IMG/VR virus record: IMGVR_UViG_3300042328_001227
Coordinates: 1-21,399 of that record
Length of the DNA: 21,399 bases
Reading direction: 5' to 3' (one strand)
Source of the DNA: a virus
Below, piece after piece: positions 5,260 through 19,236 of the stretch. The first letter of the stretch is position 1. Each line of letters opens with the position of its first letter. The translations under genes and the position numbers were made by a program. The notes below the pieces were generated by a model, which worked only from the letters and a program-made list of their open reading frames with translations, was not told the DNA's origin and searched no databases.

Positions 5260-8184
5260 ATGGCAGAAACTCAAACTTTAATTTTAGATATTCAATTTAA
5301 ATCAGAGGACGTAATTAAAAAAACCGCTGAATTAAAAAATCAGGTTGAGGGGTTAAAAAAACAAAATAAGGATTTATTAGCGGATGAAAAGTTTATTTCA
5401 GAGGCCTATATTAAAACTGCTACAGATATTAAATTTTTAACAAAAGAAATTGCAAATAATGAAAGGCAATTATTAGTTCAAGCTCAAGCCGTAAATGCAA
5501 ATAAGGGAAGCTATGAGCAGTTGTTAAGAAACTTTCAATTAGCCGAAGTTGAATTAAAAAACTTGACAGGAACTATGCAGCAAAATGCTGATGGAACGTT
5601 TCAAGTTACTGAGGCATATTTTGAAGCGCGGAAACAAGTTGAAGCCGCTAAAAAGGGGATATTAGATTTTAATGCCGGGATACTTGTTGGAAATCAAAAT
5701 GTCGGTAATTATGGAAATACAATTGAGGAGATGCGCAGAAATTTATCTGATCTCCAAAAAGTAATTCAAACAACCGATGTTAACTCAGTTCAGTTTAAGG
5801 AGGCAAAGGATCAAGCGGATAATTTAGGTTTAGCAATTGGGCAGCTTGAGGGGAAGCTTGACGAGTTTGGAAATAAGGAGCCAAAAAATCCAGCAAAAAG
5901 AACTTTCGAGGATACTATTGCAACGGCAGGTGCGGCGGCTTCCGCCTCTGAATTAGTTACTTTGGCTTTCGGGGAAAATAAAAACGTTACTGAGGCCATG
6001 GCAGCAAGTGTAAAATCACTTGCAATAGGGCAACAGATAGCAAATATTGTTAAGGAAAAGGGAGCAATTATCGATACCTTTTCAATGATCTCACAAAAAA
6101 GTTTAATTGCGGGAAATGCTATTTTAAGTTTTGGTACAACTGTTTTAACCGGAATTACAACCGCTTTTGGAGTTGCCTCAGGGGTTGCGTGGACCATTGC
6201 AACGCTTGGAGTTGCTGCTTTAATTGCTGGAATTGTTGCCTTAATTGTTTATTTTGATGATATTAAAAATGCGGTAACCGATTTTTTAGGATTAACAAGC
6301 GAGCAAGAAAGGGCAGCAGCAGCAGCAGCGGAACAATACAAAAAACAAGGGGATGCAATCAACTTTGCCCGGGATGCCTATGAAAGATATTCAACAATTG
6401 TTGGGGCTTCCTATGACAGAGAAATTAAATTAGCAACGGCAGCGGGAAAAAATACAGTTGAACTTGAAAAAGCAAAAGCAAAAAGTTTTGAGGATTCAAC
6501 AAATAAATTAATTCTGCAATTACAAGCTCAATTAAAATTAGCTGTTGCTGCAAAAGCAAGTGCTAAGGATCAAATTGCTTTAAGCCGTGAAATTCAGGAT
6601 TTACAAGGAAAAGTTTTAGATTCAAAAACTGAAACCGCTGCAAAAGAAATTGAAAAAGAAAGAGAAAAAAACGAAAAGATTGCCGAAGAAAATAAAAAGG
6701 CGGGAGAAAAAGCGGCAGCGGATAGGAAAAAATATAATGAAACTTTAAAATCTTTAGATGCCGAATTTAATTTAAGTGAGCGCGAAAAGTTAGCGAAAAG
6801 TTTTGAAGATAAAGCAGCCGTTTTAATTGGTAATGGAACGAAAGAAGTTCAGCTAAGGGAAAAAATTGAGGCGGATAAGCAAAAGGCACTTTTAAAATTT
6901 GATGCTGATCTTAAAAAAATTGAAGATGAAAAAACTCAAACTCGAATTGATAACGAGTTAAATGTTCAGGCTCAATTATTAGCAATTGAAAAAGATACAT
7001 TAAACAATCGATTAGCAATATTTGAAAATTCATTTGCAGCGCGTAAGGAGGCATTAATAAAAGCGGGTGCAACGGAGGCGGAAATAGAAAGAATTAAACA
7101 AGCGGAAATTAAAAAAATAAAAGACGGGTATACTGCCGAGGAATTTAATAATCAAATTGCATCTATAAACGCGCAATTAAAATTAGACCAAGATGCAGTA
7201 GATTTAAGTACAAAAACCGAAGCGGAAAAACAAAAAGCAAAATTAGATATTCAAATTGCAAGTTTAGAAAAACAATTAGCGCTAACTAAACAATTTTTAG
7301 GTGTTGACGGGATAATTACTGCAGAGGAATTACAAGGGATTCAAGCAATTGAAAACGCTTTAGCGGGTGCAAGAAAAAGTGCTGGAGAATTAAAACCTGA
7401 ACAAAAAACATTTGGGCAAAGTTTAGGGCTTTCTGATGAAGATATTGCAAAAGCATCTGAGGCCGTTGATGCAATTTCCTCAGGTGTAAACAAAGCTCAG
7501 GAAATTGTTAATTTAGGTTTTGAAACCCGATTAAATAATATTGATAAGGCAGCACAGGCAGAAATAGAGGCAATTAATAATTCAACTTTAAGTGAGGAGG
7601 AAAAAGCGCAAAGGATAAAAAATATTGATAAGAAAGCGGCGCGTGAAAAATATGAAGTTGAAAAGAAACAATTTGAAACCAATAAGGCATTTTCAATAGT
7701 TCAGGCATTAATAGGGGCCGCTGAGGCAATTATTCAAGGCTTTGCTCAGTTAGGGCCAATTGGTGGGGCAATTGCTGCAGTAACTACAGGTATTGCAACG
7801 GCGGCTCAAATTGCAGCGATCCAATCACAGAAACCACCAGCGGCACCGGGATTTGCAAGGGGTGTTATTGGGTTAAATGGGCCCGGAACGGAAACAAGTG
7901 ATTCAATCCCGGCACGCCTTTCAAGGGGTGAATCTGTAATAACAGCAAGCGGGACAGATTTTGCTCAAAGCAATTACCCGGGCTTGCTTGAATTTCTAAA
8001 TACTCGAAATCGCTTTGCTACAGGCGTTATTAATTTTGGAGGGGGAAATGTACCCTTAACAGTAAATGATTCAACTGAGAGGCTTATTTCGGCTATTTCG
8101 GGCATTTCTCCTGTGGTTAAGGTTACAGACATAAACAAAAAACAATCTGATTATTCAGAGGTGCGCGTAAATGGAACAATTTAA
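5260..8184 (+). CDS. Tail tape measure protein
   Basis: This 974-residue protein sets tail length and is likely ejected with the DNA. Residues 1-230 are charged heptad-like helices. Residues about 285-332 form a long hydrophobic stretch (GVAWTIATLGVAALIAG, then IVALIVYF), the membrane-like segment typical of siphovirus tape measures. From residue 350 onward come long Lys/Glu/Ala coiled coils, including a six-Ala run at 352-357. The C-terminus carries GFARGVIGLNGPGTETSD followed by SIPARLSRGESVI near residues 863-895, a motif widely found at the ends of Bacteroidota phage tape measures. Family scaling of about 0.15 nm per residue would predict a tail near 145 nm. The 3' end overlaps the next gene by 14 bases. 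No contractile sheath gene is visible. Confidence 0.92.
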   Translation: MAETQTLILDIQFKSEDVIKKTAELKNQVEGLKKQNKDLLADEKFISEAYIKTATDIKFLTKEIANNERQLLVQAQAVNANKGSYEQLLRNFQLAEVELKNLTGTMQQNADGTFQVTEAYFEARKQVEAAKKGILDFNAGILVGNQNVGNYGNTIEEMRRNLSDLQKVIQTTDVNSVQFKEAKDQADNLGLAIGQLEGKLDEFGNKEPKNPAKRTFEDTIATAGAAASASELVTLAFGENKNVTEAMAASVKSLAIGQQIANIVKEKGAIIDTFSMISQKSLIAGNAILSFGTTVLTGITTAFGVASGVAWTIATLGVAALIAGIVALIVYFDDIKNAVTDFLGLTSEQERAAAAAAEQYKKQGDAINFARDAYERYSTIVGASYDREIKLATAAGKNTVELEKAKAKSFEDSTNKLILQLQAQLKLAVAAKASAKDQIALSREIQDLQGKVLDSKTETAAKEIEKEREKNEKIAEENKKAGEKAAADRKKYNETLKSLDAEFNLSEREKLAKSFEDKAAVLIGNGTKEVQLREKIEADKQKALLKFDADLKKIEDEKTQTRIDNELNVQAQLLAIEKDTLNNRLAIFENSFAARKEALIKAGATEAEIERIKQAEIKKIKDGYTAEEFNNQIASINAQLKLDQDAVDLSTKTEAEKQKAKLDIQIASLEKQLALTKQFLGVDGIITAEELQGIQAIENALAGARKSAGELKPEQKTFGQSLGLSDEDIAKASEAVDAISSGVNKAQEIVNLGFETRLNNIDKAAQAEIEAINNSTLSEEEKAQRIKNIDKKAAREKYEVEKKQFETNKAFSIVQALIGAAEAIIQGFAQLGPIGGAIAAVTTGIATAAQIAAIQSQKPPAAPGFARGVIGLNGPGTETSDSIPARLSRGESVITASGTDFAQSNYPGLLEFLNTRNRFATGVINFGGGNVPLTVNDSTERLISAISGISPVVKVTDINKKQSDYSEVRVNGTI

Positions 8185-16247: not shown

Positions 16248-16264
16248 TTGCGATTTAATCGTAA
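16248..16264 (+). repeat. Short imperfect palindrome before the secreted-protein gene
   Basis: TTG CGATT T AATCG TAA contains perfect 5-bp arms (16251-16255 and 16257-16261), extended outward by a G-T and two T-A pairs. It lies in the 53-base gap between the lysozyme and secreted-protein genes, 9 bases before the ATG. It may be an operator or chance. Confidence 0.3.
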
Positions 16265-16272
16265 ATGGATTT

Positions 16273-17049
16273 ATGAAAAACTTAATTTTATTATTTGCTA
16301 TTTTAACTTTTGCAAGCTCCGCAATTGCTCAGTGTGATTCAGCCAAGGCTGTTAAATCATTTTGGGGATTTCCCTCTTTTAATTCATTAAATAATACTGG
16401 ACAGTGTATTTCAGCTAATATTACTGATACAACTATTTGCGTAAAAGTTAAAAAGATTTTAGCCACTCAGCAGGCCCGCTTTAGTTACTCAAGCCCGTTT
16501 GGCAGTCCTTTAATTGTAAATGAGATCAGGCAATATAATTCCGATTGTATTTTTATTGGATATGGAAATTTAATTGATGCTGGAATTGATTCGGTTGTAA
16601 TTTGTTATGATATTTCGTCAGAATTAATTGATAATTTTTGCCCTTACGCATTAATTATTTCTCCTTTAGCGGTTGAATTTTGTGGGCTTTCTGCTGTAAT
16701 GGGTGCAGAGTTTTTAAATGTTGAGTTTAAAACCTGTTCAAATACCAATACGGATCGATTTGAGCTTATAATTTCAAAGGATTTAATCCAATGGAATATT
16801 GCAGAAACAATTCAACCACAAATCGAAAACAATTCCAACGAAAGCATCTACAGGATTAATACAAATAATTTTGAAAATGGAATTAATTACTTAGCAATAA
16901 GGGAAATTGATTTAAACGGAAATGAAACCATTTCTGAAATTGCATACTTTGAATGCAGGAACAAAAAAGAAACAATTAAAAGCTATTTTGATTTATTAGG
17001 CCGCTCTGTTTCCGGGGATTCACCTTTTAAAATAGTTAGAAATGATTGA
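16273..17049 (+). CDS. Secreted beta-sandwich protein resembling host T9SS-type proteins
   Basis: The protein has 258 residues. It begins with a clear Sec signal peptide (MKNLILLFAILTFASSAIAQ), with likely cleavage after Ala19. The mature first half has several Cys residues that could form disulfides in the periplasm. Residues about 145-225 follow the pattern FELIISKDLIQWNIAETIQ, then YLAIREIDLNGNETIS. This closely resembles the fibronectin-like module 'FE(V/L)..S.D...W..I..(V/I).....YYR..(Q/E)(V/I)D.(D/N)G' that precedes sorting signals of Bacteroidota secreted proteins. The end reads SYFDLLGRSVSGDSPFKIV, similar to the start of a type A type IX sorting domain (DLLGR.V), but short and lacking the usual last strands. 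It lies between lysozyme and holin candidate, overlapping the latter by 8 bases. The function is unknown. Confidence 0.75.
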   Translation: MKNLILLFAILTFASSAIAQCDSAKAVKSFWGFPSFNSLNNTGQCISANITDTTICVKVKKILATQQARFSYSSPFGSPLIVNEIRQYNSDCIFIGYGNLIDAGIDSVVICYDISSELIDNFCPYALIISPLAVEFCGLSAVMGAEFLNVEFKTCSNTNTDRFELIISKDLIQWNIAETIQPQIENNSNESIYRINTNNFENGINYLAIREIDLNGNETISEIAYFECRNKKETIKSYFDLLGRSVSGDSPFKIVRND

Positions 17050-17248
17050 GCCACGAAAAGTTAGGAATATTTTAAATATTGTTTTTGAATATTGGAATTA
17101 TTGTGTTGGCTCTATGGCAATAATTACAGGGTTTTGGCTATTCTTTTTAAAACAAATAGACAAAGAAACATTTGCTTATATTATTGGCGCTGTAATAACT
17201 TTAAAATGGGTATGGAAGCCAAAGGAAAAGGAGGCTAAAAATGATTAA
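17042..17248 (+). CDS. Small two-helix membrane protein, holin candidate
   Basis: The protein has 68 residues with two hydrophobic segments, at about 18-36 (WNYCVGSMAIITGFWLFFL) and 43-58 (TFAYIIGAVITLKWVW). A basic N-terminus and a Lys-rich tail (KPKEKEAKND) favour both ends in the cytoplasm. This is the shape of a class II holin, which would let the signal-less lysozyme through the inner membrane. The second segment is short. The gene overlaps both neighbours by 8 bases. Holin is inferred from topology and position; no family motif is seen. Confidence 0.6.
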   Translation: MIEPRKVRNILNIVFEYWNYCVGSMAIITGFWLFFLKQIDKETFAYIIGAVITLKWVWKPKEKEAKND

Positions 17249-17797: not shown

Positions 17798-18367
17798 ATG
17801 TCAACAAGGTATATTCTTAAAAATTCAATTGATTTGTTTTATTTAGTAACTGATGAAAATGGAGTTATTATTGGGAGCAATGATTTATTCAAAGAATATT
17901 CAAGCCACATTAAACCCAAAAATGTTTCTGAAATTGTTTCAGATAGTTCTGATCTAAGTGAATTTGTTGATTCGGTTAATTTAGCAAAAGAGCGGGGCCC
18001 GCTTCCAGTTAGATTTTACGCAAAAACAAAACAAAAAAATGGATCAATGCGCTGGAATTTATGGAACATTTATTTTATTCTAAATTCTTTGCATTTTGTT
18101 GGGCTTCCTATTACTGACGTTACCTCTATAACCTCACATGAATATGAAAAGCAAAAACAACTTTTGGAGGATTTCAGATTTATGCTAAGCCATGAATTAA
18201 GACAGCCCTTAACAAGTATTGCGGGCCTTGTTAAAATGTTAATTGAAAAAGACTTTTCAAATACTGAGGAGGAGGATATTAAATTGCTTGAAATGCTTAA
18301 TTTATCTGTTGAGCAACTTGACAAAAGTATTTTTAATTTAGTAAAAAAAGCAACAAGGCAAATTTGA
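17798..18367 (+). CDS. PAS-DHp (HisKA) protein without an ATPase domain
   Basis: The protein has 189 residues. Residues 10-110 form a PAS-like sensor domain: FYLVTDENGVIIGSND, the RWNLWNIYF strand, and an exit at LPITDVTS. Residues 117-189 form a complete two-helix HisKA/DHp domain with the H box FRFMLSHELRQPLTSIAG (phosphoacceptor His132), then a second helix of about 35 residues (KLLEMLNLSVEQLDKSIF). The reading frame stops exactly where the HATPase domain would start, and no N, G1 or G2 box lies downstream. It could accept or donate phosphate from host kinases or regulators, or sequester a host kinase as a heterodimer. It is 47 bases after the tail-anchored protein gene and 4 bases before the next gene. 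The domain calls are firm; the role is inference. Confidence 0.88.
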   Translation: MSTRYILKNSIDLFYLVTDENGVIIGSNDLFKEYSSHIKPKNVSEIVSDSSDLSEFVDSVNLAKERGPLPVRFYAKTKQKNGSMRWNLWNIYFILNSLHFVGLPITDVTSITSHEYEKQKQLLEDFRFMLSHELRQPLTSIAGLVKMLIEKDFSNTEEEDIKLLEMLNLSVEQLDKSIFNLVKKATRQI

Positions 18368-18371
18368 CAAA

Positions 18372-18569
18372 ATGAATACAGAAACATTTCTACCAAAAAC
18401 TGATGCTGAGGCTGATGAGAGATTAATAAAAGTAATTTCAAATTATGTTTTAGAAAAGGAAATGCCACTTAGTTTTGCTAAAAATGTTTTAGAAAATAAT
18501 CTTAGAAACAAAGCTGAGTTTTCTAAATTTTGGATTCAACTGTTATTAATAACTCAAGCAAATGTTTAA
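18372..18569 (+). CDS. Small protein of unknown function
   Basis: The 65-residue product is helical and charged (AEADERLIKVISNYVLEKE, then LSFAKNVLENNLRN). It has no membrane segment or signal peptide. It begins 4 bases after the PAS-DHp stop and overlaps the next gene by 8 bases, so it is probably co-translated with both. Direct partner or accessory of the PAS-DHp protein is possible but unproven. Confidence 0.6.
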   Translation: MNTETFLPKTDAEADERLIKVISNYVLEKEMPLSFAKNVLENNLRNKAEFSKFWIQLLLITQANV

Positions 18570-19236
18570 AGGAATAAATTTTATTTTAGTTTTTATAATT
18601 GTTTGTCTGGTTATTATTTTATTTCGCAGTTGTGATTTAAATAGGGAATATATTTTAGAACTAAAAAAACAGGATTCTGAAATTAAATATTTTAAAACTT
18701 CAAAGCTTCAGGATTCAAGTTTTATTTATACTCAAAATTTAAATATTAAAATAAAGGATGCCGAGTTAATAAAAAACGAGCAAGAAATTTTTGCGCTCCG
18801 GGTAATGAATATAAAAAAGCCTAAAGAGATTATTCAATTTAAAACCCGCTATATTTTAAAAACCGAAATACCGATCTCAGAAATTAAGCAAATAGATTCA
18901 ACAAAATATCTTCGGGTTCCGGTTGCATTTTCAAAATCAGAAAGATGGTTTTCTATAGATGGGCAAATAAACGCCTCAGGAGCTCTTTTAATAGATTCAT
19001 TAATAAGTAATGGGCAATTTACCTATTCATTAGGAGATACCCTTAGAAAAGGCTTTATTAATAAAATGCTTAGAAAATCGGATCAGGTTGTAAGGCTTCA
19101 TATTGACAATCCAAACATCCAGCTTGAGGGAATGAGCAATATTTATATTAAGGATCGCAAAAAATGGTTTGAAACAACGGCCTTTAAAATTGCTTTCGGG
19201 GCTTTCCTTGGATTTGGCATTGCTTCGGCAAAATAA
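18562..19236 (+). CDS. Membrane-anchored periplasmic-type protein, possibly spanin-like
   Basis: The protein has 224 residues. It begins with a hydrophobic anchor (residues 5-22, INFILVFIIVCLVIILFR) followed by a charged, helical stalk (REYILELKKQDSEIKYF), so most of it faces the periplasm. The centre (IKQIDSTKYLRVPVAFSKS) is beta-rich. The end carries a second, glycine-rich hydrophobic segment (FKIAFGAFLGFGIASAK). Bacteroidota phages often have such proteins near lysis genes, with an inner-membrane anchor and a periplasmic domain, like an i-spanin; I also recall this central pattern from unnamed Bacteroidota families. No lipobox partner is visible. It ends the lysis block; a 114-base gap and a promoter follow. 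Confidence 0.6.
   Translation: MFKGINFILVFIIVCLVIILFRSCDLNREYILELKKQDSEIKYFKTSKLQDSSFIYTQNLNIKIKDAELIKNEQEIFALRVMNIKKPKEIIQFKTRYILKTEIPISEIKQIDSTKYLRVPVAFSKSERWFSIDGQINASGALLIDSLISNGQFTYSLGDTLRKGFINKMLRKSDQVVRLHIDNPNIQLEGMSNIYIKDRKKWFETTAFKIAFGAFLGFGIASAK

Follow-up and report, generated by a model that had tools for sequence, protein, structure and literature searches.

A predicted secreted protein with a host-type FN3 module and a truncated type IX sorting tail is encoded in a phage lysis cassette

The window, by which we mean the whole stretch of DNA analysed, is a 21.4 kb IMG/VR virus record (IMGVR_UViG_3300042328_001227, 21,399 nucleotides). It carries a lysis cassette in the gene order lysozyme, c0, c3, c5, c1, c6, c7 (Table 1), and the protein encoded by c0 is the subject of this report. 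The c0 gene is real and under strong purifying selection. An initial search of IMG/VR returned 17 loci with relatives at 80-98% identity, and profile-based scans extended the family to its present size, including a second clade; the two clades are about 40-45% identical to each other. When 16 loci (80-91% protein identity) were compared with c0 of the window, 77-99 synonymous and 24-51 non-synonymous codon changes were found; pN/pS for the whole gene is 0.14. By part of the protein, pN/pS rises from 0.067 in domain 1 to 0.14 in the FN3 module, 0.26 in the linker and 0.35 in the tail. Two scans of genome_contigs recovered no c0 relative from sequenced bacterial genomes and so revealed no prophage or chromosomal homologue. 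A tblastn search of the INPHARED phages with the whole protein gave no match, the FN3-tail piece searched against plasmids and phages gave only matches with E above 1, and comparison with Pfam, PHROGs, NCBIfam and PDB sequences gave no usable match. A CGTAAA/CGTATA box, a possible expression signal, precedes the c0 start codon by about 8-20 nt in most members of the two clades (position 16260 in the window).

Table 1. Coordinates of c0, its parts and the neighbouring cassette genes in the window (a slash marks the predicted cleavage site).
Feature	Position	Strand	Evidence
c0, predicted secreted two-domain protein with truncated sorting tail	16273..17049	+	258 aa ORF; 39 related viral loci; purifying selection
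c0 signal peptide, residues 1-19	16273..16329	+	predicted SPI cleavage A/QC (Bacteroidota Q-rule); Q20 and C21 invariant in 27 members
c0 domain 1, residues 20-130, Cys-rich beta-sandwich	16330..16662	+	AF2 pLDDT 86.5, pTM 0.76; pN/pS 0.067
c0 domain 2, FN3 module, residues 131-228	16663..16956	+	VIA Z ~10-11 to FN3-type domains; host FN3 HMM 23.8 bits; reciprocal HMM
c0 variable linker, residues 229-238	16957..16986	+	0/10 consensus residues common to both clades
c0 CTD stub FDLLGRSV (residues 239-246, ~ motif L-beta3-beta4) and 12 residues	16987..17046	+	no beta1-2, no beta5-7
Endolysin, GH24 phage lysozyme	15770..16219	+	Pfam PF00959, 2.8e-36; Amidase_2 or CHAP instead in relatives
c3, 68 aa, holin-like, two TM segments	17042..17248	+	conserved neighbour; 8 nt overlap with c0
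c5/c19, 169 aa, C-terminal TM segment	17241..17750	+	conserved neighbour
c1, PAS-like and HisKA protein, 189 aa, no HATPase domain	17798..18367	+	HisKA 5.2e-9
c6, small conserved cassette protein	18372..18569	+	conserved neighbour
c7, N-terminal TM segment and hydrophobic C-terminus	18562..19236	+	spanin-like by position only

Every complete c0 member starts with a predicted short signal peptide followed by Q-C. Read by eye, the N-terminus consists of a KN n-region, a hydrophobic core and a cleavage site of the form AIA/QC or GNA/QC, which makes a signal peptide plausible; the cysteine comes after the glutamine (A-Q-C), and the sequence reads as having no standard lipobox. In Bacteroidota, signal peptidase I (SPI) exposes an N-terminal Gln that becomes pyroglutamate, a regularity known as the Q-rule (PMC5837995, PMC10653852), and about 71% of the signal peptidase I substrates of this phylum obey it (PMC10653852). 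Relatives of the portal protein of this phage occur in Bacteroides, Cellulophaga and Tenacibaculum phages, and judged from these relatives and from the Q-rule the host group is Bacteroidota. Eight cysteines are invariant in c0 (C21, C45, C56, C92, C111, C123, C137 and C155), which suggests a disulfide-stabilised protein of two beta-sandwiches. An AlphaFold2 (AF2) model of the full protein (mean pLDDT 79, pTM 0.48) contains two beta-sandwiches; its tail is poorly predicted. Domain 1, the most conserved part of the protein, is predicted as a confident beta-sandwich when modelled alone. Foldseek and VIA searches with this domain returned background matches only (best Z 7.2), and no family was assigned: jelly-roll, collagen-binding, GOLD and CUB-like matches were rejected at Z values of at most 7.2, and the toxin-binding-domain matches, also of background Z, were not taken as a relationship.

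The initial annotation had described c0 as a secreted protein mimicking cargo of the host type IX secretion system (T9SS), with a module derived from Bacteroidota secreted proteins and a sorting region cut short. The residues on which it drew, FELIISKDLIQW, REIDLNGNE and, near the end, SYFDLLGRSV, are indeed present in the ORF. The second domain has an FN3 fold, with VIA Z up to 11.4 and rmsd of 2-3 A over 84-97 residues (model residues 112-213). To assess its origin, we used an HMM built from the FN3 modules of four host proteins that end in a T9SS sorting domain (CTD), from Hymenobacter and Flammeovirgaceae plasmids, with zero phage sequences. This host-only FN3 HMM recovered 27/27 c0 proteins at 16.9-32.4 bits, whereas 3000 shuffled c0 sequences scored at most 7.6 bits and 334 other phage ORFs at most 4.2. 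In the reverse test, with an HMM made from the c0 FN3 module and the tail left off, three proteins outranked all 2000 shuffles: L246 from a phage, the T9SS protein L143 from a host, and L205, again from a phage. By tblastn, the L246 module in turn matches 19 Bacteroidota plasmids, with many of the matches annotated as T9SS type A proteins, and also three uncultured phages of 635-642 kb. The HMM scores in both directions, together with the L246 matches, indicate that domain 2 of c0 is homologous to the module that precedes the CTDs in host T9SS cargo.

The sorting region is a different matter. At the curated cut-off, the TIGR04183 profile matches neither the window protein nor any of 27 members, nor any of the family's 17 phage records, and the positive controls, host L143 and phage L145 (LR745206), both pass. 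The latter control comes from a 634 kb phage (LR745206.1), whose record holds two TIGR04183 matches above cut-off; L145 itself is an unannotated protein with a full T9SS CTD scoring 39 bits. The annotation is supported as regards a secreted-type protein with a homologous module, and is not supported as regards mimicry of a complete T9SS substrate. The observation that the sorting region is cut short was accurate, since a type A CTD is represented by its FDLLGRxV piece alone, followed by 12 residues. The seven-stranded CTD sandwich is absent from the c0 C-terminus, where just about 20 residues follow the linker, and the last 30 residues of the AF2 model have block-mean pLDDT values of 53-64 and two 2-residue strands. 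In most members the tail has neither the G-x-Y element nor the terminal lysine strand.

The DxxGR-region motif (L-beta3-beta4) is present in c0 as FDLLGRSV. Consensus residues are common to both clades at 7/8 positions of this stub and at 1/12 of the segment that follows, and inside the FDLLGR motif clade 1 shows an L -> S variation. A CTD HMM made from 12 proteins aligns to c0 solely around FDLLGR, over about 14-20 residues and with about 1 bit, which is not significant; hence the stub is not callable as a CTD from a sequence score alone. It is credible because it is conserved between clades that are about 42% identical and because it recurs in unrelated secreted phage proteins. In P. gingivalis, cargo stays periplasmic when the L-beta3-beta4 motif of its CTD is mutated; a C-terminal strand bearing a conserved lysine is required as well, and loss of the last residues again leads to periplasmic retention (PMC11285876). 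The conserved-lysine strand is missing from c0. The CTD is thus reduced beyond what known T9SS export tolerates, which makes periplasmic retention likelier than surface display. Moreover, domain 1 is more constrained than the tail, an argument against the tail as the chief functional part of the protein.

Stub-tailed proteins are not confined to the c0 family. We scanned viral contigs with one AT-rich codon version of [YF]DLLG[RS], a small sample that is biased by codon choice; since the loose signal-peptide filter let false positives through, we kept just those proteins whose sequence, on inspection by eye, follows the Q-rule. The scan returned further Q-rule secreted proteins that have DLLGR close to the C-terminus and no PNP start (L153, L220, L204, L163, L188, L195, L169, L205 and L246). 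Among these, L153, L220 and L204 are related (L204 being cut at its start), as are L163, L188 and L195. A GC-rich codon version of the same scan returned mostly unrelated proteins. The L205 protein stops two residues past YDLLGR; L246, L153, L163 and L169 have slightly longer stubs, with a Y-I/Y-L element and a basic end that resemble the end of a CTD. Several of the genes have lysis-type neighbours. In L163, L188 and L195 the stub-tailed gene overlaps an M15 peptidase gene, and the next gene encodes TM segments; L153 and L220 have a DUF5675 gene and small TM proteins nearby; in L205/L358, an unrelated phage, the FN3-YDLLGR secreted protein is flanked by a PAS protein on one side and by an N-acetylmuramoyl-L-alanine amidase-like gene on the other, the latter named by sequence motif and not by profile. 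No lysis gene is visible adjoining the stub-tailed gene in L246 or L169. Given the small, codon-biased sample, the enrichment of stub proteins near lysis genes is a lead and not a statistic.

Two of these neighbourhoods contain further features. In the phage group of L205, the lysis region encodes a membrane-anchored PAS protein (L205 7549-8124; L371 371-943) that adjoins the FN3-YDLLGR protein or its remnant. The remnant, at L371 943-1064 in a relative of L205, lies between the PAS protein and the amidase and results from a clean deletion inside the secreted gene; the signal peptide start and the last residues are left, and the flanking genes are intact. Near the stub-tailed protein of L163 there are an exported thioredoxin-like protein (7174-7545; Pfam Thioredoxin 2.3e-6) and a second Q-rule protein of 341-364 aa (5803-6897).

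The placement of c0 between a lysozyme and a holin candidate, as initially annotated, turned out to be that of a conserved lysis cassette in which c0 stands between the endolysin and the holin-like gene. It lies directly upstream of c3 and/or c5-c1 in all contexts examined, and most members of both clades show an overlap of 4-17 nt between c0 and the holin-like gene. Downstream, c3-c5-c1 are found in both clades; upstream, the endolysin is of the GH24, Amidase_2 or CHAP type, and two loci (L037, L052) have no lysozyme visible adjoining c0. Neither c3 nor c7 had a match in profile searches. The PAS-HisKA gene c1 was found in no fewer than 134 viral loci, most of which lack c0: the cassette is without c0 in 68 of the best 80 of these loci, and in L069-L136 the lysozyme is followed by c3/c5/c1, with c0 absent. 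So many cassettes without it mark c0 as an optional insert in a conserved lysis cassette. These cassettes, together with the gene remnant in the L205 relative, indicate that c0 is probably not required for lysis.

A constant member of the cassette is c1, arguably a more striking finding than c0 itself. In L057-L136 its H-box histidine is kept in most, and the surroundings vary (SHELRQP, SHKVRKP, AHDLRQP). The protein may interfere with, or tap, host two-component signalling; searches of the literature gave no relevant report of phage PAS/histidine kinase proteins with a tie to lysis. Some c0 cassettes, though not all, also contain c45 (L041 8524-9042, L044, L046), with a lipoprotein-type signal and a C-terminal TM segment, which looks like a unimolecular spanin.

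What could a predicted exported protein of this kind be doing among lysis genes? Our preferred reading, to which we give about an even chance, is that c0 is a late, Sec-exported envelope accessory of lysis and not T9SS cargo, the role in lysis being read from the position of the gene only. The protein would be made late and pass through the host Sec translocon, whereupon signal peptidase I would bare its N-terminal Gln. Its FN3 domain and FDLLGR stub would stem from the C-terminal portion of a T9SS cargo protein of host type, with the sorting domain worn down until it was no longer a normal export signal. Most likely, c0 would then stay periplasmic or sit on the inner side of the outer membrane, and would probably help or tune the final lysis step by binding an envelope component or its neighbours, the holin-like c3 and c5. 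We count in favour of this reading that c0 keeps its cassette position despite the switches of endolysin, and that the stub proteins of L205/L358 and L163/L188/L195 adjoin lysis-type genes. Against it, a place in a late operon would equally fit a moron gene with another envelope task, many cassettes do without c0, and the stub proteins of L246 and L169 have no visible lysis neighbour.

We consider it unlikely that the short tail is a genuine minimal sorting signal, with c0 displayed on the surface or released, either to counter superinfection or to serve as an adhesin. The longer-stub relatives L246, L153, L163 and L169, which retain the Y-I/Y-L element and the CTD-like basic end, speak for such a signal, as do the existence of phages with a full CTD (L145; PMC7468147) and the mapping of the HBP35 signal to the last 22 residues, as cited in PMC11285876. 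Yet that HBP35 segment comes from another region of the CTD, most c0 tails have no G-x-Y and no terminal lysine strand, TIGR04183 is not matched, and late co-expression with lysis genes would leave little time for exclusion. Slightly less likely is a periplasmic lysis timer of the T4 RI type, in which c0 would bind the periplasmic side of c3 or c5 and delay lysis. RI is likewise exported with a cleavable signal peptide (PMC8385771) and c0 overlaps the holin-like gene, but c3 offers short loops only between its two TM segments, and c0 is absent from many cassettes.

An inhibitory function of the stub appears improbable. According to this proposal c0 is a decoy that has the recognition motif and not the export motif, occupies the T9SS translocon and blocks host surface display. 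It would account for the fact that the recognition-type motif alone is kept between the clades and that stub tails recur across several phage families, and it agrees with the periplasmic retention of P. gingivalis cargo that has lost the L-beta3-beta4 motif or the last residues (PMC11285876). The tail, however, has a pN/pS of 0.35 against 0.067 for domain 1, clade 1 carries L -> S within the motif, and CTD recognition is species-specific (PMC11285876). Finally, it is very improbable that c0 is a virion component decorating the head or tail: phage structural proteins often contain Ig-like and FN3 domains, but all complete members have a predicted signal peptide, eight cysteines are invariant and the gene lies downstream of the endolysin.

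It is tempting to speculate further, although we hold it quite improbable, that Bacteroidota phages acquired the FN3-CTD end of host T9SS cargo on several occasions, trimmed its sorting domain to a DLLGR stub and put the resulting protein in their lysis cassettes, where the stub would touch the T9SS and stop host surface display or couple it to lysis, as a phage type IX secretion inhibitor. Should c0, as in our preferred reading, act in the envelope, it would be a new exported lysis factor in a phylum with little-studied phage lysis; should the stub engage the translocon, phages would thereby have a grip on type IX secretion.

How does c0 compare with known systems? With T9SS type A cargo (TIGR04183, Por_Secre_tail) it shares the Q-rule signal peptide, predicted in c0, an FN3 domain before the C-terminus and the DxxGR motif. 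Unlike such cargo, it has no PNP beta1-beta2 start, no G-x-Y and no terminal lysine strand, it does not match TIGR04183, and among IMG/VR, INPHARED and the sequenced bacterial genomes searched it was found only in phages. T4 antiholin RI (PMC8385771) is, as predicted for c0, an exported phage protein with a cleavable signal peptide, and is tied to lysis; c0 is larger and beta-rich. Both phage-encoded T9SS cargo (PMC7468147) and Q-rule secreted phage proteins (PMC10367356) are already known, and in the literature searched we did not find a truncated T9SS-cargo-type protein in a lysis cassette. The P. gingivalis phage proteins likewise expose Gln after the signal peptide and have no assigned function; unlike for c0, the available text of PMC10367356 describes neither an FN3/CTD stub nor a linkage to lysis. 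In gut phages, T9SS domains adjoin BACON proteins (PMC6949934). A related case is the cargo of a cryoconite phage, called unique when it was reported in that one phage (PMC7468147): like c0, these Cryophage proteins are phage-encoded, host-style secreted proteins related to T9SS cargo, but they are recognised type A CTD proteins (endoglucanase, GH39, PA14) located in variable islands. The c0 family represents a different outcome, in which the module has been kept, the sorting domain has become a stub and the gene resides in the lysis cassette of many uncultured Bacteroidota phages.
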